A stretch of 64,000 nt of DNA from a virus: positions 1-64,000 of the IMG/VR virus record IMGVR_UViG_3300034418_012737. The stretch is one strand, 5' to 3'. The first letter of the stretch is position 1. The number at the start of each line of letters is the position of its first letter. This document shows positions 2,282 to 61,494 of this stretch, piece by piece. The position numbers were made by a program, and so were the translations under genes. The notes under the pieces were generated by a model. The model saw nothing but the letters and a program-made list of their open reading frames with translations, was not told the origin of the DNA and did no database searches.

Positions 2282-4792
2282 TTATGCTGGGTTTTGGGCA
2301 TCCATTCTAGTAGCAGTCAATGTTGATAATCCTTGAATTCCATTTGAAGAACTATAGAACATAAATTTAGTTACATACTCATGGCCTTGTCCTATTGTAA
2401 TGGCACTTCCTGCTAAATCTTTTATAGAGGCTGAGTATTGGTTACCCATATCATTTGTACGATAAATTTCCATATCGTTTTGGGATGCTCCTACCATTTC
2501 TATTTCTATGATCACAGAATCACCAGAAGTTACTGAGGCTGTTGGAGGGGCAATAACAAATTCTGAAACTGTATCTGAATAATTTCTTACAAGCCATTTA
2601 TTGTATCCTGCAGAAGCAGTTGCGTGATAGTAAGGAACATCAATTTGTACTGTTCCATTAGTAGCACCCTCAGAATAAGTACCAGAACCTCCTACTGCAG
2701 TATTATCATATCCAATAGTCATACCATATGGTTGGAATATTACACTAGTTACTTTAAAGCTACGATTTGTAGTACTTTGCTGGATAGAAAGGTTAGTACC
2801 AGTGTGGTTTAATAATTGTCTAGTAAAGGCATAACCATACGAACCTGTGTTTATATTAAAGGTACTTGTAGTAGTAACATCAGCATTTCCAAAAGCTATT
2901 ACATTATCTGTAGCCGCTGGAGTACCCCCTGAAATACTTACTGCCATTGAAGATATAGTTTCATCTATACTAAAGTTAATAGTTCTTTCTTCAGCTGGGA
3001 TTGAATAACCTTCATCACCATTTCCTGTTGATGGGGGAGTAACTTCGATTACTTTACCTTCGGAATCTATTGATAAAGCATAAGCTTCAGTACCTGTATA
3101 ATTTCCGGCCCCATATTGATTAAACATAATAGCTCTAGAAGAAGAAACTAATAAACCAGTTTTTGGAGTACCATTGTCGGGAGATTGAAGAGTTTTAAAC
3201 TCAATACTAGCTTGACCTGTGTAAGGTGGGGAAAGAGTACTATCTGCTGTTATTTTTATCTCAGCGACATTAACACCTCCTGTTAAATCATCACTAGCTT
3301 GTATATCTATAGAAGCTATCTCACTTCCAGAAACTATAGAGGTTTCTAGTGTATCTAAAATTAATGCAGGTTGTCCTGATGCAGCTTGGATTGTTACTAC
3401 ATTATTAGTTTCGTCATAAGTAAATCCGGAATCCCCACCAAAAGCACCATTATCATTATATTGCACTTCAGTATTATTTCCTCCTGGGGTGCCTCCTCCA
3501 GGGCTAGTACCTGATGTACCTGATGCACCTGATGTACCAGAAGTACCTGTAGCACCCGTAGCACCATCAGCACCACTTGTACCAGAAGTACCTGTAGCAC
3601 CCGCAGCACCATCTACACCACTTGTACCTGAAGTACCTGTCAAGCCTGACGTACCAGAAGTACCTGCTACTTCAAGAGTAGTGGTACCTGATGTACCTGA
3701 TGTACCAGAAGTACCTGTAGCACCCACAGCACCATCAATACCACTTGTACCTGAAGTACCTACACTACTTATACCTGAAGTACCTGAGGTGCCTGATCCT
3801 CCTCCCCCTCCAATATTTGAATTGGCTACATAACATACATTATTAGTTCCTGTAGAAGGGGAAGTAGGAGCTGAACCATTTCCTGATTGGTAAGTTACAT
3901 CAAAACTATAAACATTTCCTGCTGTAGAACCCGAATTAATTAAATAGGTGCCATCATTTCCATTATCCCAAGTTACTGTAAGAGTGCCTCCTGCAGATTG
4001 TAGTGCCCCTAATACATTAGATTGGTCTGTACTATCATCGTCAGTATTAAAAAATTTCCAAGTGGTAATGCTTGCAATAGCAAACACATTATAATTAGCT
4101 TGTCCTGTACTAGGATCACCAGTATCAGAAATTAATTCATAACTCATACATCCTGCTGATCCTGATACTGATGTACCTGATATACCTGATGTACCAGAAG
4201 TACCTGTAGCACCTGCAGCACCATCTACACCACTTGTACCTGAAGTACCTGCGGCACCTGGTGAATTTATTCCCGATGTACCTGAAGTACCTGCGGGGCC
4301 TGTACCACCATCAACACCACTAGTACCGGCAGGGCCCGTAGAGCCATTAATACCACTAGTACCTGAAGTTGCAGATCCTGTATCTATAGTTATTGCAAAA
4401 GTGTTTCCATCCCCTTCAGTAAAAGTAATTATATTACCTGATACTGAAGCTGTTTCTATAAGAGAACCTGTGTCTATTTGTATACTACCTGTTTGGCTAA
4501 TTAATAAGAAAGTATCTCCCGCAGATACACTTTGACCTTTTTTGACTTCTCCTGTCGTTGAATCTAAAACTAAAGTTGAATATCCACTATCAACATCAGG
4601 GGTACCATATAAAGTAGTAGACCCACTTAATAAGGTAGATCCTGTTACCATAAAACTACCACTTAGAGTTATGTTGTATTCATATTCTCCAGTAAAAGCA
4701 TCTACGGATTGAGAAACATGCCAAGCGTTTATAACAAAAGTTTGATTTACTTGGTCATTTCCTGTAAAGATTTTTTTTAATGTGTTTGCCAT
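2282..4792 (-). CDS. Tail fibre with collagen-like Gly-Thr-Ser repeats
   Basis: An 836-residue fibre protein. After a beta-rich head of about 140 residues come two blocks of GTSGTSG-type triplets mixed with GATGTSG and GPAGTSG, at roughly residues 140-205 and 330-435. These are typical of phage collagen-like trimerising shafts. [10 protein letters not shown] linker and a motif of the kind [12 protein letters not shown] follow, the latter common where fibre receptor domains begin. The C-terminal 380 residues are beta-rich with no recognised fold. It is the last gene of the tail block and starts 1 nt after the stop of its neighbour, so it is probably cotranscribed with the tail genes. Confidence 0.85.
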
Positions 4793-15172: not shown

Positions 15173-17083
15173 TTATAGAGGAACTACTCTTCCTTTAATA
15201 TCTGTGTTAGGATTTTTAAGTTCAAAAATTGAAGGATCCTTAGATGGATAAATTATCCCATTTAAAGTAGCTCCTTTCATATCATAACCATATTTAGAGT
15301 ACCCTAAAGACTCACCAGCTATGTTTTCTATAGTAATAGATTTAGTATTTTGTACCCCTTCAATAGCATTGAGATTTATATATAACTGGTTTAACTCAAT
15401 AGGTTGGTTTATTTGGGCTTTAGAAGTATCAAAGTAATTAGATATAGTATTAATACACTTTACTATTAATTCATTACTATTATAATTAGGTAAAGTTACT
15501 ATTTCAAACTTAACCCTAAAATTAATTATAAAAGCATCTTTAATTCTGACTGAATCATTTATTATACGGTATTGGGATAAATAAGTAGCTAGATTGCGCT
15601 TTAAAGTATTAGAAGGGGTAGCAAGAGTGCCATCACTATTATAAGCACACACATATAAATCTAGTGTAGGTAAAGCTTCATTTATATTTTTATCTTGCAA
15701 AGTAGGAATTTCTGCATAAGCTTTAGCTAAAGAACCATATTTAGAAGGCATACTAAGAGCCCTAACTAAATAATCTTCTTTAGTAACTGCTCTTAATTGG
15801 CTCGCATAATTAGCTATTATATTATACCTTAAATCTTCCATAGAATCTCCATTCCCCCCTCCGGTTGATTTATTAGGATTAGTACAAGTTAAAGAATTAA
15901 AGGTATCTTGGGCAAGATTAGGGTCTAAAGTATCAAATGCAAATTTAACTTGGGAAGTATTTAATCCTGTTAAAGTATTAGCAGGGATATTAGCCCCAAC
16001 CCCTCCCCCAGTAAGGTATCTTACAGTTAAAGTAGTATTTGAAGGAGCAATACCATAAGTTTTAGTGTATAAAAAATTAGAAGGATCATAAGCTGTAGTA
16101 AGCTTATTTCTAGTAACAGGAAGTCCTATACCTACATTTTCAGGGTTAGGAGTAATTTCTTCATCAAAGTCTTGAGTAGTACCTGCTCCAAATTGAAGTT
16201 GGAGGGTAGCAGATCCACTATTTAGATTATTGTTACTTACAAATCTTGAAACAAATCTTCTAGGAACTTTTTCTAAACTTAAAATATAGGGAACTTCACT
16301 ATAATCAGATTGAGCATTAATGTCATTAGGAAAAGGATTAGTATTTTTAATTGTATTAAAAATTGTTTCTTGAGCTAGATAATCTACCTCTTTCCATTCA
16401 TTCCCATCTGAATCATACACATCCAGGATTCCTATAAGATTTTGGTCTTGAATTTCAAAAGTAGAAAATCTTTCTGGTTCCCCCGCCGAGAAATTAATAC
16501 TAGCTATAGTTGCAGAGTACGCCTCTACTGTTTTTTTAAGTAAAAAACTTTGAGGTGTATCACCTTCAATGGCATACACAGATACAATTGTAGGATCTAA
16601 AGAACTAGATTGACTAAAATCAACTACATTTTGTGTAATAAAATTTATATTAGATTCACCATCTGTTGTGATGCTAGTATTCTCAGGTATTATTAAGGAA
16701 TAACTAAAATCAGGAATATCCCTACCTAGGGTAGGATTATATATTGCTGGAACTATTTGGAATATTTCAACTTCTGTAGTTGAAGGAGTGCTAACACTGG
16801 GTTTATACCCCATCATATAAGCTAAAGCATATAAATTATTTAATTGTTTAGCATACTGTGTAAAATTTTCTTGAATTTGGTTATCTGTATAGAAGGCCAT
16901 AATGTCTCCTACATAAGAAGCCATTTCTATAAACATAGTGCTAGGAGAAGCAGGACTAAAATCTGTTACAGTATTAGGGAAATAAGTTTTAGCAAATTCT
17001 ATCAGATTTGCTCTTAATTCTGTAAAGTCTCTATTTACATACTTAATATCCCTATTAATTTTATTTTGGTTATTGTATCTCAT
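15173..17083 (-). CDS. Baseplate wedge protein, gp6-like (baseplate J family)
   Basis: 636 residues. The N-terminal region reads RDFTELRANLIEFAKTYFPN, then FIEMASYVGDIMAFYTDNQI and YALAYMMGYKP, which is the conserved opening of T4 gp6 and the gpJ wedge family. The C-terminal part (ISNYFDTSKAQINQPIELNQ, then LNAIEGVQN) matches the second conserved block. In T4, gp6 dimers tie the wedges into the baseplate ring and drive its rearrangement on infection. Its stop and start touch the gp25-like gene, reproducing the classical gp25-gp6 order. Length is close to T4 gp6 (660). Confidence 0.92.
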   Translation of the reverse strand: MRYNNQNKINRDIKYVNRDFTELRANLIEFAKTYFPNTVTDFSPASPSTMFIEMASYVGDIMAFYTDNQIQENFTQYAKQLNNLYALAYMMGYKPSVSTPSTTEVEIFQIVPAIYNPTLGRDIPDFSYSLIIPENTSITTDGESNINFITQNVVDFSQSSSLDPTIVSVYAIEGDTPQSFLLKKTVEAYSATIASINFSAGEPERFSTFEIQDQNLIGILDVYDSDGNEWKEVDYLAQETIFNTIKNTNPFPNDINAQSDYSEVPYILSLEKVPRRFVSRFVSNNNLNSGSATLQLQFGAGTTQDFDEEITPNPENVGIGLPVTRNKLTTAYDPSNFLYTKTYGIAPSNTTLTVRYLTGGGVGANIPANTLTGLNTSQVKFAFDTLDPNLAQDTFNSLTCTNPNKSTGGGNGDSMEDLRYNIIANYASQLRAVTKEDYLVRALSMPSKYGSLAKAYAEIPTLQDKNINEALPTLDLYVCAYNSDGTLATPSNTLKRNLATYLSQYRIINDSVRIKDAFIINFRVKFEIVTLPNYNSNELIVKCINTISNYFDTSKAQINQPIELNQLYINLNAIEGVQNTKSITIENIAGESLGYSKYGYDMKGATLNGIIYPSKDPSIFELKNPNTDIKGRVVPL

Positions 17084-17862: not shown

Positions 17863-19065
17863 TTATTTTGCTTCTATATCTTCTATGTCAATTAAAAATT
17901 TTAATTCATTTATTAATACACTAGGGTCTGATGCAAAAGATGAATCACTAGTTAGTTGTACTTGCCCTTTAGTGTTTAAAGCAACTGCATATCTTAAGGG
18001 CCAAGGAGTAGTATTAGATTTATCAAATCTTATTTCAAATGTAAAACCTTTATATTGATAAGAATTATTATTTACATCTTGTTCATTAATAGCTTCTAAA
18101 GTTTCTACCCCTAATTCATTTAAAAGATTATTAATATCTTGATAATTAGTACTTTCTTCCCCAGGTGAAAAGGTTCCTATAGGCAACCCCCCAGGGTTAA
18201 ATGCTCCAGTACCAATACCTGTACCTGTACCTGTACCTGTACCTGTACCTGTACCTGTACCTGTACCTGTACCTGTACCTGTACCTGTACCTGTACCTGT
18301 GCCTGTGCCTGTGCCTGTATTTATATCTATCCCAGTATTTCCCCCTATGCCTCCATTTATATTTGCATTTGAAGCATTAGCACGTTCTTGTAGTACACTA
18401 TTTTGGGCGCATACTAAAGTTAGTATATCTAAAAATTCTAGAGCATCTTGGATGTCCCCTATTATGTCACTTATAATATCCCCTACTTCTTTTATTCCAC
18501 ATCCTATCCTAGCAAATTGTTCTAGTAATTTTTTTAAATTCTCTAATATATCACCTGCAAAATTTATAGCTCCTGTGGGGACAACAGCAGCAGGAATAGG
18601 GGCAAATTTAATAACTTTTAATACAACTTTTAAAGGAGGGGGAATTTTACTAACAGTTTTACCTGTTTTAAGTAAGGTATTAACTTTATTTTCAATTTGT
18701 TCTAAACCCTTTGCAATATTATTTCTTTTTTTAATAATATTTTCCAACTCAGATTTAGTAGGACATGATGTATTTAATTGGGTTAATATATCATCTCCAT
18801 ACTCTTGTCTAAGAGTATTTAATGTTATATTATTACCATATTTAGCTTTTAAAGCTTGGGGGTCTATGTTTTTTAAATTCCCAAAAGAATTTTTTAATCC
18901 TTCTATTTGATTTATAATCCTTTCTTTGATAACAAAAACTTGGGCAAGAATAGTTTGTACTAAAGTTGCTATGGGATTTGGGGCACAAGGATTGGTTAAA
19001 GCATCTAAAGCACCTGCTACTTCATCTCCTAATTTTTCTTTTATTTTATCCTTTAATTTACCCAT
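17863..19065 (-). CDS. Baseplate-region structural protein with a (Gly-Thr)n linker
   Basis: 400 residues. The N-terminal 230 residues are helical, with hydrophobic segments (FVIKERIINQIEGLKN and VVLKVIKFAPIPAAVVPTG) and paired cysteines. A low-complexity Gly-Thr run of about 40 residues follows, then a C-terminal domain of about 110 residues with NYQDINNLLNELGVETLEAI and a beta segment. The GT run is coded by a perfect hexanucleotide tandem array, so its length may vary among relatives. It overlaps the gp5-like gene by 1 nt. A baseplate-hub partner is inferred from position. Confidence 0.7.
   Translation of the reverse strand: MGKLKDKIKEKLGDEVAGALDALTNPCAPNPIATLVQTILAQVFVIKERIINQIEGLKNSFGNLKNIDPQALKAKYGNNITLNTLRQEYGDDILTQLNTSCPTKSELENIIKKRNNIAKGLEQIENKVNTLLKTGKTVSKIPPPLKVVLKVIKFAPIPAAVVPTGAINFAGDILENLKKLLEQFARIGCGIKEVGDIISDIIGDIQDALEFLDILTLVCAQNSVLQERANASNANINGGIGGNTGIDINTGTGTGTGTGTGTGTGTGTGTGTGTGTGTGTGTGIGTGAFNPGGLPIGTFSPGEESTNYQDINNLLNELGVETLEAINEQDVNNNSYQYKGFTFEIRFDKSNTTPWPLRYAVALNTKGQVQLTSDSSFASDPSVLINELKFLIDIEDIEAK
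18217..18318 (-). repeat. 17-copy hexanucleotide tandem repeat coding for (Gly-Thr)n
   Basis: The plus strand shows 14 copies of acctgt followed by 3 copies of gcctgt without interruption, 102 bp in all. Each unit codes for Gly-Thr on the minus strand. Units are multiples of three, so slippage would change linker length without a frameshift. Confidence 0.97.
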
Positions 19066-27427: not shown

Positions 27428-30235
27428 TTATCCTAAAGAAATTTTTATATCTGTTCCACTTCTATATAACATGCCTACTATACCAGGATCAGCAGTTGGA
27501 AGAGAGCCTGTCTCTAATAATATATTAGGCATATGGACTGAAGATGTTGCTCTAGTGCATATGTTAAATCCTCCAAGAATAATAGCTCGTTCGTGATTTA
27601 CACAAGCTAATTGAGAAGCTATAACTGATCCAAAACAAACTCCACAAATATATCCTCCTGCAGAAGCAATAACTGAACTTTGGGTAGCTCCTGATCCTGT
27701 TATACATGACGCACTACCTCCAATGACAGTATTAGTATTTCCTTGGCAACACATATTATGGCTATTTCCACCTATAATTGTATTAAAATTTGATGCAGCG
27801 CCTGTTGTTGCAGATTGTATTGTACTACTGTAAGAGGCAATAATGTTTCCACTTCCTCCTACCTGCATTCCGTAAATCCTATTTTGATATCCTATCACTG
27901 TACTACATTGTACATCCTGAATAGTATTATTTCTTATTCCTAAGATAGCATTAGAAGAAACGTTATCGTTATAGTGAGATAAAATTTTATTATTATATCC
28001 CCCAGCAATAAAATTCATCCCAACACTACCACCAATAGTAGAATTACTTGCATTACCAATAGTATTACACAAACCACCTACTATATTATTAAGATAGTTA
28101 TAAGAACCTGAATTAGTACCTGCTATTTGGCATATTGTGTTTATACTTCCTCCCCCTATAAAATTACTTCCTAATGGGTAATTTCCTGAGCAGCTACTTC
28201 CTGTTATTTTATTATTTGTTCCTCCTACAATGACATTACCTCCTGTATAGGTCCAATAAGCACTACATGTGTTTGTAGCTTCACTTCTTATTTCATTATC
28301 TATACCACCTCCAATAAAGTTAGGAGCTAAACTATAATCATTATTGTAAACACTAGCGGAGTTCATGAAAATAGTATTTCGAGCACCCCCCATTATAGCA
28401 CTAAATGAACCACTAGCACCTGTAAGGGCAGGAACACTATAATTATTTACCCCTAATGATAAAGCTATATTACAATCTGCTGCAGTATTACACATACCAG
28501 AGAAAATACCTATACCCGAATAATTTGAACCATGTGCACAGTTTCGATATCCTCCCCCTATTATAGAGCAATTAGTGTATGCTATACAATTATCACATCC
28601 ACCTCCTATAAATCCAAATGCACTATAAGTGGAACTGTTAGAACATCCTCCCACTACAACAGCATGCGTTCTTCCCCCAACTGAATTCACACTTCCACCC
28701 CCAATAAAACCACAACTTGCACCTATTGAGATGACATTAAGAGTACCACCACTAATAGTAGCTTTATTGACACTAGATCCGTCTACACGATTGGCGCATC
28801 CACCCCCAATAGTGTTCATTCCTAGACCTGGAGCATTACATATTTTATTTGTGAGACCTCCTGCAATTGTATTATTTCTACCTGCATTGCAAATGCAATG
28901 AGCACTACCTCCTCCAATAGCATTCCATCCATCCTGACCACCAATGGATGCCGAAATAATGTTATTTGCTCCACCATTAATTGAAGCTCCTGGGCTTCTA
29001 AATATTCTATTGCAACAACCCCCCGCTATGACACTTGTATATGAGTCCGTAGTATTACTACATCCACCTACAATTGTAGTAAAAATATTAGGTTGAATTC
29101 CACTACCTTTTCCATCATTATAGTTAAATCCAAATGATATAGTGTTGTTACTACCATTTAATATGGCAGTATCACTACCACTAATATAATTTCCACTTCC
29201 AGATACAGGAACTATACCACGCACAACACTACCAGAGTATATTAAAGCAGTATCTACACTACTTCCACCACCACCGGTTGCTGTTATAGTAACATTACCT
29301 GTACCTTGATCAATTGATATTCCACTACCCGCTATAATAGATGTAACACCTCCACCACTACCAGTACTAGCTTCTAGTAAACCGTTGGTTCCTACGGTAA
29401 CAGTACATCCATTACATGCACTAAAAGTACTTATAATTAAATCATTAACATGTGTTGTACAATCTCTACTAGAAGTTAAATCGCTACCTACTATAAATGA
29501 TTTTGGATGGGTTACAGAATTCCTAGTACCTCCTAAAATACCACTAAAACTACTAGAAACATTATTATTATCTCCACCCCCAATAAATGTATAGCTGGAT
29601 GCAGATATTATACAGTTATTACTTCCACCTCCAATAGCACTATAATATCCACTATCGCTTAAAGTAGAGTTTTTGGATACACAATTTCGAAATCCACCTC
29701 CAATAAAACTTCCACCTCCACATGCTACGTTATCTGAACCTCCTGCAATAGTGCTATAAAATTGACATATTCTATTTTGATATCCACCTCCAATAGTAGC
29801 ATCATAAGCACATTCTCCTATTGAATTATAACATCCTGATATAGTAGTACCTCCATCTACTGCAGAGGAAGTGTTACTTACACCAAAAACAGTTACACCA
29901 GAAGTAGATGTACTGTTGTTCATTGTTGCGCAGTTATTTCTACCACCAACAATTGTACCGGTTCCTCCTACAACAGTATTATTACATCCTCCTACTATAG
30001 CACTAAAAGAGCCGGTTGAAAGAGAGTTACTACCAGATTGAGGGACAATACCATTGGTACTGCCTGAATATATTAGAGCAGTGTCTACACTACTTCCTCC
30101 ACCCCCTACTACTGTGGTTAAATCAGTTATTGAAAGTTGTTTAGTATCACCACCAGCTACTACAGCTACTACACTGTTTCCAGTTGTTTCTGCAGCACTT
30201 CCTGTTGATAATCCTGATATTTTTACGTTTGCCAT
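27428..30235 (-). CDS. Giant beta-roll tail fibre/adhesin with IGGG repeats (935 aa)
   Basis: The N-terminus (VKISGLSTGSAAETTGNSVV) looks like a tail-attachment module. From about residue 80 to 880 runs a degenerate repeat of roughly 15-20 residues with the core (T/F)IGGGxxNxI, resembling the left-handed beta-roll heads of YadA-type trimeric adhesins. A segment reading SSVDTALIYSGS occurs twice (near 50 and 330), an internal duplication. Cysteines are strikingly frequent. The last 30 residues (LLETGSLPTADPGIVGMLYR and on) are nearly identical to those of 30607-32634. Likely receptor-binding. Confidence 0.8.
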   Translation of the reverse strand: MANVKISGLSTGSAAETTGNSVVAVVAGGDTKQLSITDLTTVVGGGGSSVDTALIYSGSTNGIVPQSGSNSLSTGSFSAIVGGCNNTVVGGTGTIVGGRNNCATMNNSTSTSGVTVFGVSNTSSAVDGGTTISGCYNSIGECAYDATIGGGYQNRICQFYSTIAGGSDNVACGGGSFIGGGFRNCVSKNSTLSDSGYYSAIGGGSNNCIISASSYTFIGGGDNNNVSSSFSGILGGTRNSVTHPKSFIVGSDLTSSRDCTTHVNDLIISTFSACNGCTVTVGTNGLLEASTGSGGGVTSIIAGSGISIDQGTGNVTITATGGGGSSVDTALIYSGSVVRGIVPVSGSGNYISGSDTAILNGSNNTISFGFNYNDGKGSGIQPNIFTTIVGGCSNTTDSYTSVIAGGCCNRIFRSPGASINGGANNIISASIGGQDGWNAIGGGSAHCICNAGRNNTIAGGLTNKICNAPGLGMNTIGGGCANRVDGSSVNKATISGGTLNVISIGASCGFIGGGSVNSVGGRTHAVVVGGCSNSSTYSAFGFIGGGCDNCIAYTNCSIIGGGYRNCAHGSNYSGIGIFSGMCNTAADCNIALSLGVNNYSVPALTGASGSFSAIMGGARNTIFMNSASVYNNDYSLAPNFIGGGIDNEIRSEATNTCSAYWTYTGGNVIVGGTNNKITGSSCSGNYPLGSNFIGGGSINTICQIAGTNSGSYNYLNNIVGGLCNTIGNASNSTIGGSVGMNFIAGGYNNKILSHYNDNVSSNAILGIRNNTIQDVQCSTVIGYQNRIYGMQVGGSGNIIASYSSTIQSATTGAASNFNTIIGGNSHNMCCQGNTNTVIGGSASCITGSGATQSSVIASAGGYICGVCFGSVIASQLACVNHERAIILGGFNICTRATSSVHMPNILLETGSLPTADPGIVGMLYRSGTDIKISLG

Positions 30236-30251: not shown

Positions 30252-30569
30252 TTATGCTATTATAAAGTATTCTTCTGTTGGTGAAAAACCTCTTTCTGCT
30301 ATTATATTATCGCCTCCTTCTGTAGTTAAAAGTCTTGTTTCTCTTCCGGGATCATCCCCACCACCACTTCCCGATGGAAGAGGCCCTCCAGCACCGGCTG
30401 CTGCTGATAAAACGTTTAAAGCACTTATGGTATTTAAAGCACTTATATAATTTTCAAATAAAAGTTGTTCTTGTAAATATCTATTTCTTGCTTCCATTAT
30501 AGGAAGATTTTTTATATCTTCTCTAAGAAGAAATATATTCCAAGGCCCGGGTCCCATTATATTGTTCAT
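30252..30569 (-). CDS. Fibre-associated adaptor-like protein, KNLPI family
   Basis: 105 residues. The pattern WNIFLLREDIKNLPIMEARN, then RYLQEQLLFENYI and a Gly/Pro-rich AAGAGGPLPSGSGG, is shared with the 103-residue protein at 47192-47503. Each such gene sits immediately upstream of a large effector gene (here the 935-residue fibre, there a trypsin-like protease). An adaptor or chaperone that fixes a fibre-borne effector to the virion is inferred. An AATATTTAT element lies 5 nt upstream. Confidence 0.65.
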   Translation of the reverse strand: MNNIMGPGPWNIFLLREDIKNLPIMEARNRYLQEQLLFENYISALNTISALNVLSAAAGAGGPLPSGSGGGDDPGRETRLLTTEGGDNIIAERGFSPTEEYFIIA

Positions 30570-30606: not shown

Positions 30607-32634
30607 TTAACCTAAAGAAATTTTTATATCTGTCCCACTTCTATACAACATACCTACTATGCCAGGATCCGATGTAGGGAGTGAACCCGTTTCTAGAAGG
30701 AGATTATTTACGTGTAATGATGAAGTAGTTCTAGCTATAATGTTATGTCCTGCTATAAATGAGCAATCACATTCTCCACAGTTTCCTTCACCTCCTATTA
30801 CTACGGATCCAACACCTGTAGCAGTGTTATTCCTACCTCCACCTACTATAGCATGGTTTCCTGAGGCAACGTTGTTACAACCCCCCCCTACTATAGCACA
30901 ACAACCTGAAACCGTATTGTCCCTTCCCCCACCTATTGTGGAATAAAAACCTGAAACAGTATTACATTTTCCTCCACTTATTGTAGATGAGTTACAGAAA
31001 GTAGCATTACAAGAACCCCCACTTATTACGCTGCAGTTACCTGATCCAGTGTTATAACGACCCCCACCTATTACAGAGCTAACTCCTCCAGCAGTGTTTA
31101 TAGTTCCCCCACCTATTGTAGATTGAGCAGCTAAAGCATTGTTTTGATATCCCCCACCTATTGTAGCCCAAATACTTGAACCAGAGTTAAGACTTCCCCC
31201 ACTTATTGTAGCACAATTACCTGAAGCATCATTTCTATATCCCCCACTTATTGTGGCAAATCTACCTGAAATATTATTTTCTTGACCCCCACCTATTGTA
31301 GCCATACAATTTGAAATTATGTTAGAAATGCCTCCAACTATTATGGAATAATTACCTGGGGAGCAGACAATGTTGTCACAACCCCCAACTACTATAGATA
31401 AAGAAGTGCTGGTAGTGTTATTTCTACCCCCACCTATTATGGAACAAGCACCTGAGGCAACGTTGTTACAACCCCCAACTACTATAGATCTTGTACCTGA
31501 GGCGGTGTTACAATTTCCTCCACCTACTAAAGAATAAGGACCTGAGGCAGTATTATTATATCCCCCACTTACTGTAGATGCATTACCTGAAGCTGTGTTT
31601 TGCTTTCCTCCAGCTACTGTAGTGCAAGAAAGCGATGCAGTATTACTTAAACCTCCACCTATTGTAGAAAATGGGCATGAGGCGGTGTTACAAAAACCCC
31701 CACCTATTGTAGCTCCTGAATTTGAGGCAGTGTTATCACTACCCCCACCTATTGTAGCCTTACAACCTGAAGCTATATTGGAACAGCCCCCACCTATTGT
31801 GGAAAAAATACCTGAGGAAGTATTGCTTTCACCCCCACCTATTGTGGATAAAGTACCTGAGGAAGTATTGCTTTTACCCCCACCTATTGTAGTGCAAGCG
31901 CCTGAAGCAACATTACATACACCTCCATCTACTACAGAGGAATTTGCTGAAACAACATTACATAAACCTCCACCTACTACAGAGGAATAACTTGAGACCG
32001 TATTATTACTTCCCCCACCTATTACAGAACAATTGCTCAATCCTACCGCACTATTTTTATATCCCCCACTTATTGTGGATACCCTGGCTGAAGAAGTGTT
32101 ACACGCTCCCCCACCTATTGTAGAGCAATGACAAGATGCAGTATTAAGAATGCCCCCACCTATTATGGATGAATTGCCTGAAGCATTGTTACTAATACCC
32201 CCACCTACTGTAGCCCCAGTATTTGAGGCAGTGTTATTACGACCCCCACCTACTGTAGATACAACACCTGAGGCAGTGCTGTCACAACCTCCACTTACTA
32301 CAGCTCCAGTCTGTGAAGTGGTATTACAAATACCCCCTGCTATGGTTGAAAATATACTACTAACAGTATTTTCACATCCTCCTCCTATTGTAGAAAAACT
32401 ATCTGCTTCTACCCACATCCTATTACTTCCTGATTGGGGGGTTATATTACCACTTGAGCCTGTGTATACTAAAGCAATACTTCCTGTTTCTCCTACTATA
32501 GAAGTAGTACTTAATAAGTCTGCTACTGTTATTTTCTTGTTACCCCCATCATTTATTATAGGTAAGACATCTGTAGAGGCAGATATTTCTGATGCTCCTA
32601 TTTGTGTAAATTGTGTTATTTTTTTATCAGCCAT
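30607..32634 (-). CDS. Beta-roll tail fibre/adhesin with regular 15-residue IGGG repeats (675 aa)
   Basis: The N-terminal 75 residues form a distinct head (KKITQFTQIGASEISASTDV, then SIALVYTGSSGNITPQSGS). Residues about 80-620 are some 35 copies of a 15-residue repeat, STIGGGxxNTASGxx, far more regular than in 27428-30235. The spacing and Gly/Asn positions suit a trimeric left-handed beta-roll as in YadA/Hia heads. Cys recurs at the same repeat positions (GGGCSN, GGICNT). The C-terminal segment is almost identical to the other fibre. A receptor-binding fibre whose length could change by recombination between repeats. Confidence 0.82.
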   Translation of the reverse strand: MADKKITQFTQIGASEISASTDVLPIINDGGNKKITVADLLSTTSIVGETGSIALVYTGSSGNITPQSGSNRMWVEADSFSTIGGGCENTVSSIFSTIAGGICNTTSQTGAVVSGGCDSTASGVVSTVGGGRNNTASNTGATVGGGISNNASGNSSIIGGGILNTASCHCSTIGGGACNTSSARVSTISGGYKNSAVGLSNCSVIGGGSNNTVSSYSSVVGGGLCNVVSANSSVVDGGVCNVASGACTTIGGGKSNTSSGTLSTIGGGESNTSSGIFSTIGGGCSNIASGCKATIGGGSDNTASNSGATIGGGFCNTASCPFSTIGGGLSNTASLSCTTVAGGKQNTASGNASTVSGGYNNTASGPYSLVGGGNCNTASGTRSIVVGGCNNVASGACSIIGGGRNNTTSTSLSIVVGGCDNIVCSPGNYSIIVGGISNIISNCMATIGGGQENNISGRFATISGGYRNDASGNCATISGGSLNSGSSIWATIGGGYQNNALAAQSTIGGGTINTAGGVSSVIGGGRYNTGSGNCSVISGGSCNATFCNSSTISGGKCNTVSGFYSTIGGGRDNTVSGCCAIVGGGCNNVASGNHAIVGGGRNNTATGVGSVVIGGEGNCGECDCSFIAGHNIIARTTSSLHVNNLLLETGSLPTSDPGIVGMLYRSGTDIKISLG
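30760..32400 (-). repeat. Tandem 45-bp repeat region in fibre gene
   Basis: The plus strand shows a recurring cccccacctattgtag-type core every 45 bp, about 35 times, with variable flanks. It codes for the IGGG beta-roll units. Boundaries are approximate. Confidence 0.85.
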
Positions 32635-45464: not shown

Positions 45465-45663
45465 CGTAATTAGCGTTAGGGTATAAATAATTTAAAATTT
45501 CATTCATTTTTTTATTAACTAATACATTACCCCCATCAACAGTATCAATAACTGTTTTTTCGGGGTCAATTGGACATTCACGTATTGATACGATCTTGTC
45601 ACAATAAATAATTCCGGGCTTTTTATGAGGGCCCATCTCATCAAATTTGAGGTAAATTACCAT
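45457..45663 (-). CDS. Small early-type protein, unknown
   Basis: 68 residues with VIYLKFDEMGPHKKPGIIYC and a strand-rich middle. It overlaps neighbours on both sides by 1-8 nt. Unknown. Confidence 0.6.
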   Translation of the reverse strand: MVIYLKFDEMGPHKKPGIIYCDKIVSIRECPIDPEKTVIDTVDGGNVLVNKKMNEILNYLYPNANYDV

Positions 45664-45866
45664 TAATCAACGATTTTAATGTACTCACTAATACCCTCAG
45701 TCAGCGGGTAAAGATTACCTTTGGTGGGGTGAACCACCATTTCGGTCTTATCAAACTGCTTAACCAGTCCACGCTTGTTAAACACAACGCTCAGAGCGTT
45801 AACAGGCACATAACAACGGCCGTAGGCCTTAAACGTTTCTCCCTTGCGGATCGTAACTTTCATCAT
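45663..45866 (-). CDS. Small early-type protein, unknown
   Basis: 67 residues (or 66 from the second of two tandem ATGs), basic and beta-rich: KVTIRKGETFKAYGRCYVPV. First gene of a long operon of very small genes headed by the module at 45872. Unknown. Confidence 0.65.
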   Translation of the reverse strand: MMKVTIRKGETFKAYGRCYVPVNALSVVFNKRGLVKQFDKTEMVVHPTKGNLYPLTEGISEYIKIVD

Positions 45867-45871
45867 GCCAT

Positions 45872-45925
45872 GAATATACGAAGGGAGGGTGGCATTGCCA
45901 CTCTCTCACATGACGTCAAAATGAC
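45872..45925 (-). promoter_or_regulatory. GTCAT/TATATTC promoter module
   Basis: GTCAT pair at 45925-45910 (TTGACGTCAT type), spacer with the palindrome GTGGCAATGCCAC, then TTCG-TATATTC at 45878-45872 and the leader ATGGCATG. Drives the eight-gene operon down to 44352. Confidence 0.85.
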
Positions 45926-45926
45926 T

Positions 45927-47195
45927 TTAACTAATATCCTCAGTTGTCCCTACTTGATAGTAGATTTTACCATTATATTCAAAAGAAGAAGCAGTAGTAA
46001 ATTCCTCAGCATAAAATAATTCAATATTATCCAAATCCTCAAATTTAGGAGTGGACCCATCCCACGCTCTTAAATCTAATTCCCTTGCTGCATTATCTAT
46101 TCTACCTATATATGCCCTAGTTAAACTACCTGCAAATTCTATCCCTAATACTTTCCACACTCCATTTATTTGTACTAAAACCCATGATCCCGAATCCCCA
46201 CCGGCAGAAGGTCTATCGCATTCAGGGTCTACTCTCTTTAAGGAGATTTGGTCTGTGAAAATACAATTTTGGTTTGTTGCAAAACTATCCCATCTTCTGT
46301 TCTGGCTTGTATAAGTCATCTCTATAGTAAGGCCTCCTGCTTCTACTGTTAATTCACAATACCCAGGGTATCTTGCCCCCAATCTACTTCCACACATTAA
46401 TATAGGGTACGAAGAAGGATTTTCTATAACTTCATCAATTTCATCTGATGTAGCAAAAGGTGGGGGAGATGTTATGCCATCATAACCATACTGTTTCCAA
46501 CTTTCATTTACATCTATTACACTTTGGGCTGAAGAGGTTATATAAAAAGTAGCTACATCTACATAATTGTATACCTCTATTCCACCAGTACCAGCAGTAT
46601 TTCCTTTTCTAAAAATAGGAACATAATTTCTAGTACCCCCTAATAAAGTTTTGGGATCAGCACTTCTAAGTGGGTTACTAGCCTCAATTTCTTCAAGTGT
46701 ATTATACCTATGGGACTCAATTAAATCACTTGACATTTCTCCAGTGGAGTATATTCTAAGAAGCCCTACGTGTGCATTTGTTACCCCTACTAAACACCCT
46801 GTATTTGCATCTACTGCAAAACCTCCTATAGTACCATAAGTTCCTTTACTACTTACAAATTGTGCTGCTACTCCTCCTTTCATAGGACTACTGTAATCCG
46901 TAGGGGGGAAATTGGCCCCAGTATCTGTACAAGTAGCGCAATCGGACGTTGCTTCAATTACTCCTACTTCTACTACATCAGTTTTAAATACCTTGCCTTT
47001 TAAGTTAATAGTAGAGGGTAATATTTGATCACTTGATAGTGAACTAAGAGGAAGCTTTTTAGTAACTGTAAATATTATAGCTTTTTCTCCTGTAGGTTGT
47101 CCTTCTACTACTTTTTCCCCATATCCTACTCCCACTCCATCTGGGGTATTTTTAAATATATTAGGTAAATGGTGCTTTATATCTTTAAATTTCAT
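45927..47195 (-). CDS. Trypsin-like serine protease domain protein
   Basis: 422 residues. A full chymotrypsin-fold triad can be read: His142 in GVTNAHVG, Asp213 in NYVDVATF, Ser335 in AGGDSGSW with the classic GDSG. Cys-rich segments lie near residues 85-90. The N-terminal 80 residues (PDGVGVGYGEKVVEGQPTGE) resemble the pre-domain of bacterial Nal1-type proteases. The gene overlaps the KNLPI adaptor gene by 4 bases, as a fibre gene does at 30 kb, so the protease is probably virion-borne and acts on the host surface. Confidence 0.82.
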   Translation of the reverse strand: MKFKDIKHHLPNIFKNTPDGVGVGYGEKVVEGQPTGEKAIIFTVTKKLPLSSLSSDQILPSTINLKGKVFKTDVVEVGVIEATSDCATCTDTGANFPPTDYSSPMKGGVAAQFVSSKGTYGTIGGFAVDANTGCLVGVTNAHVGLLRIYSTGEMSSDLIESHRYNTLEEIEASNPLRSADPKTLLGGTRNYVPIFRKGNTAGTGGIEVYNYVDVATFYITSSAQSVIDVNESWKQYGYDGITSPPPFATSDEIDEVIENPSSYPILMCGSRLGARYPGYCELTVEAGGLTIEMTYTSQNRRWDSFATNQNCIFTDQISLKRVDPECDRPSAGGDSGSWVLVQINGVWKVLGIEFAGSLTRAYIGRIDNAARELDLRAWDGSTPKFEDLDNIELFYAEEFTTASSFEYNGKIYYQVGTTEDIS

Positions 47196-58382: not shown

Positions 58383-58538
58383 TCAAAATAGATCAAGGTA
58401 ATCTCCTTTTATTTGTTTTGACTTGAATTTAAGCATCTTTTCGTCATTCTCCAAACTTTTTGTCGCAAGCTTTTCAAGATGTTTACGTTTTTGTCCATCG
58501 TAATCGTCTACTAATTTTTGATGCTTACGCTTTTTCAT
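58383..58538 (-). CDS. 51-residue basic helical protein
   Basis: Complete frame ATG 58538 to TGA 58383: MKKRKHQKLVDDYDGQKRKH, then LEKLATKSLENDEKMLKF and a mixed end. It overlaps the GH16 gene by 14 nt. Unknown. Confidence 0.6.
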   Translation of the reverse strand: MKKRKHQKLVDDYDGQKRKHLEKLATKSLENDEKMLKFKSKQIKGDYLDLF

Positions 58539-59232
58539 ACTTAAAGTATTTTATAGTAAAATTACTAAGTGGTATTTCTGAATAGGGCATATCTTGTGTG
58601 ACATGGTTGTTTATTACAACATTCATTTTAGTATTATTTACCTGTTTCATTACAACTGGGTCACTTACTACACGGACTAATCTGTCATTGTAATAAAACT
58701 TTAATGAGTCTAAGCTCCAATTTAATTTGTACTTTAAGAAGTGTTTTGTGGGATCTTTAAAGCCCATAAAATGACTTTTAGGTCCCCACATTTTATTTTT
58801 ACCCCCTTCAGAGTAGTGCACATTTGTATCTATATGCCTACAAGCCCAAGGTTTGTTCCAATTAAACCTATGATAATTTGGTTTTTTATGAGAATAACCT
58901 TCAAATATATCAATTTCAGGGGGCCAACTGTCCCAACTCCACATCCAAAAAGCAGGCCATAAGTTCTTACCATATGGTAATTTAGCTTTTATTTCAAATA
59001 TGCCAGGACCAAATTCAGTAGCACATGATACCAAACCTACACCTACTTTAGGTCTAATTCCTAATTCTTTAAATTCCTTAGGATTATATTGGGTTTTTAA
59101 ATTTAAGTAGTTTTTTAATGTAATTTCAACAGCACTAGGATCATACCAACAATAAGGCTTATCCTTGTGTACCTGTCCCCACCTTTCTTGGGTTAACCAT
59201 TTATATCCTGACCATTCTATTATTTTACTCAT
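58525..59232 (-). CDS. Glycoside hydrolase family 16 enzyme
   Basis: 235 residues, the length of a bare GH16 catalytic domain. The active-site strand reads PPEIDIFEGY, with Glu106 as nucleophile, Asp108 and Glu111 as acid/base, the invariant ExDxxE pattern. Flanking Trp residues (WPAFWMWSWDSW) and HIDTNVHYSEGG are also typical. GH16 enzymes cut beta-1,3/1,4 glucans or galactans such as laminarin, agar and carrageenan. No signal peptide is present. It could be a virion depolymerase or act inside the cell. It overlaps the HNH-like gene by 4 bases. Confidence 0.9.
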   Translation of the reverse strand: MSKIIEWSGYKWLTQERWGQVHKDKPYCWYDPSAVEITLKNYLNLKTQYNPKEFKELGIRPKVGVGLVSCATEFGPGIFEIKAKLPYGKNLWPAFWMWSWDSWPPEIDIFEGYSHKKPNYHRFNWNKPWACRHIDTNVHYSEGGKNKMWGPKSHFMGFKDPTKHFLKYKLNWSLDSLKFYYNDRLVRVVSDPVVMKQVNNTKMNVVINNHVTQDMPYSEIPLSNFTIKYFKYEKA

Positions 59233-60575: not shown

Positions 60576-60584
60576 ATAAATATT
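60576..60584 (-). promoter_or_regulatory. AATATTTAT late-type element
   Basis: Coding-strand AATATTTAT 4 nt upstream of the ATG at 60571. Overlaps the 3' end of the GT2 gene. Confidence 0.55.
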
Positions 60585-61494
60585 ACAAATAAACTAACTC
60601 ATTTTGATACTCTTGTAAGGAATTAACTGTAATTTTTAAGTTACCCAATTCAAAAGTACCTAATTGATTGTTATCTTTAATTATATCATTTAATTGTTGA
60701 ATATAAGTGTAATCTTCTTGGGTAAAATTATTTCCATCTACCTCAACAACAATATCTTCTCCCTCATTAAACCATATACCTAATGTATTTTTAAGTTGGG
60801 TGGTGAAATTATTTAAGATTAGTTTTTTCTTATACACTACATTATAGTGTGATTTTCTAAAACCCCACTTTTTAATAAAGTTAATATTAGATTCTTGTTC
60901 TACACTTTGATAGTTACCTACTCTAGAAGTTTTACTTACAAAATGGTATACTTGAGCAGGGGAAACTACTTTTTTAAACCCTCCTATTTTATACCTTAGA
61001 TGTAAATCATCATCTTCACAAAACATTTTAAATGTATCACCATCTAATTTTATATAATCTTCTTTTAAACACCCAAAAAATATTTGAGAGCCCCCTTCAG
61101 TTGTATTTTCAGATACAGGATAATCTAAAAACTTTTGGTGATTATAGGATTTTAAATCGGTTCCACAGTCTAAAATTTCTTTCCCAGGATAAGTGTCTAA
61201 GTATATAGGGGGTTCTACCCTTGTGTAAGATACAATAGTATTTTTTTGAATAGCTTTATCCATTAGTTCTACAAACCCAGGTTTAAGAACCATATCATTA
61301 TGGAGAAGGATAATTTTATCTCCCTTAGCACGAGCTACAGCATTATTATAATTTTCACTTAATGTAACTTGATTATTTAGTTCTAAAATTATTTCTACTT
61401 CATTTTTATTAGGGTAAATTTCCCTAATATTATTTAGCAAGTACTTAGTATATTCAGAGTTTGTTTTATTAGTAGGTATAACAAGGGAAATCAT
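60583..61494 (-). CDS. Glycosyltransferase family 2 protein
   Basis: 303 residues. ISLVIPTNKTNSEYTKYLLN is the nucleotide-binding start of GT2 enzymes. AKGDKIILLHNDMVLKPGFV carries the HND metal site (DxD equivalent), and FFGCLKEDYIKLDGDTFKMF then CEDDDLHLRY gives the acceptor-side ED motif. A complete GT-A domain with a short C-terminal extension. Fourth gene of a glycan block and overlapping its neighbour by 4 bases. Confidence 0.85.
   Translation of the reverse strand: MISLVIPTNKTNSEYTKYLLNNIREIYPNKNEVEIILELNNQVTLSENYNNAVARAKGDKIILLHNDMVLKPGFVELMDKAIQKNTIVSYTRVEPPIYLDTYPGKEILDCGTDLKSYNHQKFLDYPVSENTTEGGSQIFFGCLKEDYIKLDGDTFKMFCEDDDLHLRYKIGGFKKVVSPAQVYHFVSKTSRVGNYQSVEQESNINFIKKWGFRKSHYNVVYKKKLILNNFTTQLKNTLGIWFNEGEDIVVEVDGNNFTQEDYTYIQQLNDIIKDNNQLGTFELGNLKITVNSLQEYQNELVYL

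Follow-up and report, generated by a model that had tools for sequence, protein, structure and literature searches.

The UspA1 head of Moraxella catarrhalis (PDB 3PR7 and 3NTN; Pfam UspA1_rep) and the heads of YadA, BpaC and CbpF are left-handed parallel beta-rolls, among which UspA1 is distinguished by a 15-residue repeat and an extra glycine (PMC9543794). In rolls of this type, equivalent positions of adjacent layers are spaced by about 4.8 Å, and the side chains facing the solvent are considered to modulate ligand binding (PMC9543794). Cys is scarce or missing in autotransporter passengers, whose export is impeded by disulfides that form in the periplasm (PMC3297439). Among phages, a tail fibre with a C-terminal YadA domain is already known from a pelagiphage, and the structural proteins of phage Milano, with 2.1% Cys, are joined in an extensive disulfide network (PMC10811340), with defined bonds in the sheath, the baseplate and the fibres. 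The protein described here, protein A, probably shares the fold class of the YadA, BpaC and CbpF heads and, like UspA1, has a 15-residue repeat (STIGGGxxNxAxGxx) with the extra glycine, whereas BpaC repeats are of 14 residues. Unlike UspA1, which is an exported trimeric autotransporter, A combines a phage N-terminal module and a different C-terminal cap with 36 repeats carrying Cys on their outside, while bacterial repeats of the UspA1 pattern contain almost no Cys. It also differs from the pelagiphage fibre, for which no Cys enrichment is mentioned (PMC3909814). An initial annotation of this DNA knew of no phage fibre with such a Cys-rich roll, and this agrees with the open-access papers searched, in which we found no description of a Cys-rich surface class of phage fibres.

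The window, that is, the whole stretch of DNA analysed, comprises 64 kb out of an 80-kb virus record. It codes for a primase, eight tRNAs, a collagen-like tail fibre (2282-4792) and a baseplate wedge protein (15173-17083), which shares 43.5% identity with its counterpart in Flavobacterium phage immuto and 41.9% with the one in Microcystis phage Mel-JY01. Two sugar-related genes, for a GH16-family hydrolase and a family 2 glycosyltransferase, are found at 58525-59232 and 60583-61494 on the minus strand (L286), and epimerase, aminotransferase and glycosyltransferase genes follow beyond the window, as in phage immuto. A 6-bp tandem repeat of about 17 copies (97% matching) occupies 18216-18319, within the ORF 17863-19065.

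Protein A is encoded on the minus strand by an ORF of 675 aa that starts with ATG and spans exactly 30607-32634. An N-terminal module (residues 1-80, MADKKITQFT..DVLPII..KKITVADLL; 32395-32634) is followed by the repeat array (residues 81-624; 30763-32394) and by a C-terminal cap (residues 625-675, ending in LLETGSLPTSDPGIVGMLYRSGTDIKISLG, plus the stop codon; 30607-30762). The array consists of tandem repeats with the consensus STIGGGxxNTASGxx (n = 36, close to the approximately 35 copies originally estimated) and a period of 15 residues or 45 bp, two repeats of 17 residues being the exceptions, and TRF detected periods of 45 and 90 bp in the gene. The Cys-richness noted at the outset was equally borne out, since the 540 repeat residues account for 31 of the 32 Cys of A, whereas Cys averages 0.79% over the 46 other ORFs of the window (binomial P = 3e-17). 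These residues occur only at solvent-facing or turn positions, namely 7 (6 Cys), 8 (8), 10 (1), 12 (1), 13 (4), 14 (3) and 15 (8), and are absent from positions 1-6, 9 and 11, which include the core positions. The GGGCxN and GGxCNT patterns, read by the initial annotation as fixed Cys positions, thus represent just two among several sites.

Residues 232-476 of A matched the UspA1 head 3PR7 with an E value of 2.8e-25 (phmmer), and weak sequence matches to the grass ice-binding beta-roll (LbR_Ice_bind in Pfam; ryegrass 3ULT in PDB) were also obtained, although A bears no sign of an ice-binding role. Both Pfam models scored under their curated cut-offs on A (UspA1_rep, 18.8 bits against 27; LbR_Ice_bind, 27.3 bits against 30). 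The single-chain AlphaFold2 model of A showed a repeating two-strand roll, in which most of the array reached a pLDDT of about 80-94, and low values in the N-terminal module. In VIA-align searches the best match of this full model was the left-handed CbpF (9gh5; Z = 14.7, rmsd 7.2 over 171 residues), whereas that of a single-chain model of 14 repeats (pLDDT about 90) was the antifreeze beta-helix 3p4g (Z = 15.6); Foldseek against the PDB returned no significant match for either model. Because these structural matches conflict on handedness, the fold was assigned from the sequence match, which supports the reading of the A repeats as a predicted UspA1-type, 15-residue left-handed parallel beta-roll.

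Several features place A among phage fibres. Its N-terminus is of a modular kind common to phage proteins: residues 1-41 share 49-56% identity with the N-termini of otherwise unrelated phage proteins, and a cyanophage KBS-S-2A protein annotated as a tail fiber gave a weak match to the module (E = 0.04). The C-terminal cap resembles those of the viral relatives, and tail genes lie near. Identity as a trimeric autotransporter adhesin (type Vc) was considered and rejected in view of this phage-module N-terminus in place of a signal peptide, the short phage-type cap and the lack of any Pfam match to a C-terminal YadA-type membrane anchor. From sequence and gene context, we infer a trimeric fibre on the virion of a tailed phage as the most likely identity of A, its trimeric state, its place in the particle and its part in host attachment being presumed. 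Together with the 3PR7 match, the N-terminal module and the nearby baseplate and tail-fibre genes sustain the earlier proposal of a YadA-type beta-roll in a phage fibre.

A second roll protein of 935 aa with 38 Cys, protein B, is encoded at 27428-30235 on the same strand. B is a paralogue of A, with a near-identical C-terminal cap and an N-terminus 34% identical over a 71-aa query (E = 3.6e-7); its Cys-rich beta-roll shows the same GGGxxN repeats in a looser, far less regular arrangement. The 105-aa ORF between both genes (30252-30569, minus strand) had no match in Pfam or PHROG. No relatives of B were confirmed by the peptide search of viral contigs. Among isolated phages, tblastn gave no match to A or B under a low-complexity filter that may mask repeats, and no convincing array was seen in the stretches scanned of phage immuto (about 150 kb) and Mel-JY01 (100 kb).

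The first search for relatives was seeded in part with Cys-containing peptides. As such seeds could bias the outcome toward Cys, a second search without any Cys requirement was run on viral contigs and on bacterial and archaeal genomes, using a DNA pattern in which positions 7, 8 and 12-15 were left free. The 95 viral proteins recovered by the pattern were bimodal in their number of Cys per repeat at exposed positions, with 39 proteins at 0.12 or less, 56 at 0.29 or more and an empty gap in between, and Cys was nearly absent at these positions in the 39 proteins from genomes (724 repeats). Pooling both viral searches, the Cys-rich class comprised 88 proteins and 3,490 repeats, the A phage included, and the Cys-poor viral class 41 proteins. 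At position 8, Cys was the commonest residue in the seeded relatives (25%), and its share there was 18.5% across the Cys-rich class. The frequency of Cys per position tracked how often bacterial repeats have a charged residue there (rho 0.85), which is why we place Cys on the solvent-facing side of the roll, and its density was uniform along the array. The exposed positions of viral repeats varied widely, and Asp and Glu were less frequent there than in the bacterial ones.

Two trivial causes of the split were discarded: genome-wide Cys richness, because the other ORFs on contigs with Cys-rich arrays contain only 1.1% Cys, and base composition, because bacterial and Cys-poor viral repeats of low GC (0.40 or less) still lack Cys. 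Moreover, one viral contig (L142) carries both a Cys-rich array (0.95 Cys per repeat) and a nearly Cys-free one (0.07), a contrast that disfavours mutation acting across the genome as the cause. At each of four loci (L003, L008, L012 and L054), three or four Cys-rich beta-roll proteins were present. In the contig of another locus (G007, L017), a Gp23 capsid match at 45478-46356 is interrupted by several in-frame stops (TGA, TAG and TAA).

The Cys content was compared with an expectation derived from the codon composition of the same positions, treating Cys codons as unseen and assuming independence of codon positions. Cys reached 1.12 times this expectation in the Cys-rich viral class, but 0.03 times in the Cys-poor viral class, 0.02 times in bacterial repeats and 0.26 times in the other genes of the window. 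The clearest statement is that Cys avoidance is gone in the Cys-rich viral class. It should be considered that the codon model is crude, with ratios by position spanning from 0.5 to 13 times; a positive preference for Cys is possible at position 8 (1.67 times) and at position 10 (13 times, on a very small expectation).

Over 2,717 tandem repeats from the Cys-rich class, the arrangement of Cys was judged against shuffling. Cys recurred at the same position of the next repeat 296 times against 286 expected (1.03 times, compared with 1.17 times for Ser and 1.11 times for Tyr), and A itself contained two such pairs against 4.4 by shuffling, below chance. No inter-repeat pair of positions was strongly coupled. 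This includes positions 8 and 15 across layers, for which our own mapping onto the BpaC structure suggested proximity across monomers (PMC9543794). Inter-subunit pairing between 8 and 15 and metal motifs of the CxC type were both rejected after shuffling tests. Inside single repeats, close Cys neighbours were depleted (182 against 222 expected), as was Cys at both 8 and 10 (24 against 42). In matched segments, Cys was conserved at 0.53, similar to Asn (0.54) and Tyr (0.51) and below Ser (0.76) and Gly (0.85), in a test whose counts are inflated by near-identical redundant contigs counted repeatedly.

Our preferred explanation, which we hold to be somewhat more probable than its denial, is that the ban on Cys that comes with autotransport ceased to apply to phage fibres, which are made outside the periplasmic route, and that Cys thereby became an ordinary, unstacked surface residue. 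In A, the N-terminal phage module would act as the anchor and the beta-roll as a shaft closed by the short C-terminal cap. Bacterial rolls would exclude Cys because passengers must traverse the oxidising periplasm unfolded. Tailed-phage fibres, in general, fold in the cytoplasm and exit by lysis. A would likewise fold in the reducing cytoplasm and be released by lysis free of any Cys ban, and Cys would drift into exposed sites like other small surface residues; the resulting thiols would be mostly isolated, engaging at best in irregular cross-links once in oxygenated water. Release from an export ban fits the scatter of Cys, the lack of pairing and its turnover. Against it count the low Cys content relative to codon expectation in the other genes of the phage, the possible positive preference at positions 8 and 10 and the coexistence of both kinds of array in L142. 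Furthermore, the proteins of the Cys-poor viral class, as phage-encoded fibres, would likewise not be exported, so that release from the ban is insufficient on its own to account for them.

Alternatively, exposed Cys may have been selected to form irregular disulfides between trimers, or between A and B fibres, after lysis in oxygenated water. Such cross-linking needs no fixed register, and no pairing signal would be expected from it. The sharp bimodality of Cys use with its empty gap, the confinement of the enrichment to repeat proteins and the occurrence of several Cys-rich arrays in one phage speak in its favour, as does the precedent of Milano, which has Cys-rich phage structural proteins like A, itself a putative virion component. 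Unlike in Milano, Cys-richness in the phage of A is limited to the roll proteins, and there is no sign in A of defined pairs. The use of Cys near codon expectation, its conservation not exceeding that of Asn or Tyr and the depletion of close neighbours within repeats weigh against irregular cross-linking, which we consider unlikely, though worth keeping in sight. Somewhat more doubtful still is the broader idea that a large and diverse set of phages bears, all over long beta-roll fibres, unpaired surface thiols that selection preserves and that become reactive after lysis, either building a covalent fibre coat or adhering through thiol chemistry, as mixed disulfides with the host.

A further proposal would make Cys one of a set of small or aromatic neutral residues (Cys, Tyr, Phe, Asn, Ser and Gln) through which the shaft would present a variable surface for receptor binding. 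The high variability of the exposed positions, their reduced Asp and Glu and the ligand-tuning role proposed for solvent-facing side chains of such rolls (PMC9543794) are consistent with it, but Cys is spread evenly over the array, with no concentration toward the tip, and no ligand is known, and we regard this proposal as improbable. The disulfide ladder or metal-binding strip of Cys stacked along the roll, as first imagined for this fibre, is very improbable: although Cys is the commonest residue at position 8 in the seeded relatives and the layers are closely spaced, same-position neighbours occur at chance, which speaks against a regular ladder, positions 8 and 15 are uncoupled, 8-10 pairs are scarce and Cys is conserved no more than Asn or Tyr.

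One fold is thus found in two settings, exported adhesins and phage fibres, that differ about fifty-fold in their use of surface Cys, and the comparison amounts to a natural experiment on the avoidance of Cys by exported proteins. If the phage thiols are functional, the chemistry by which they serve attachment or stabilise the fibre would be an undescribed one, and widespread, as 56 of the 95 viral proteins from the pattern search without a Cys requirement were Cys-rich.
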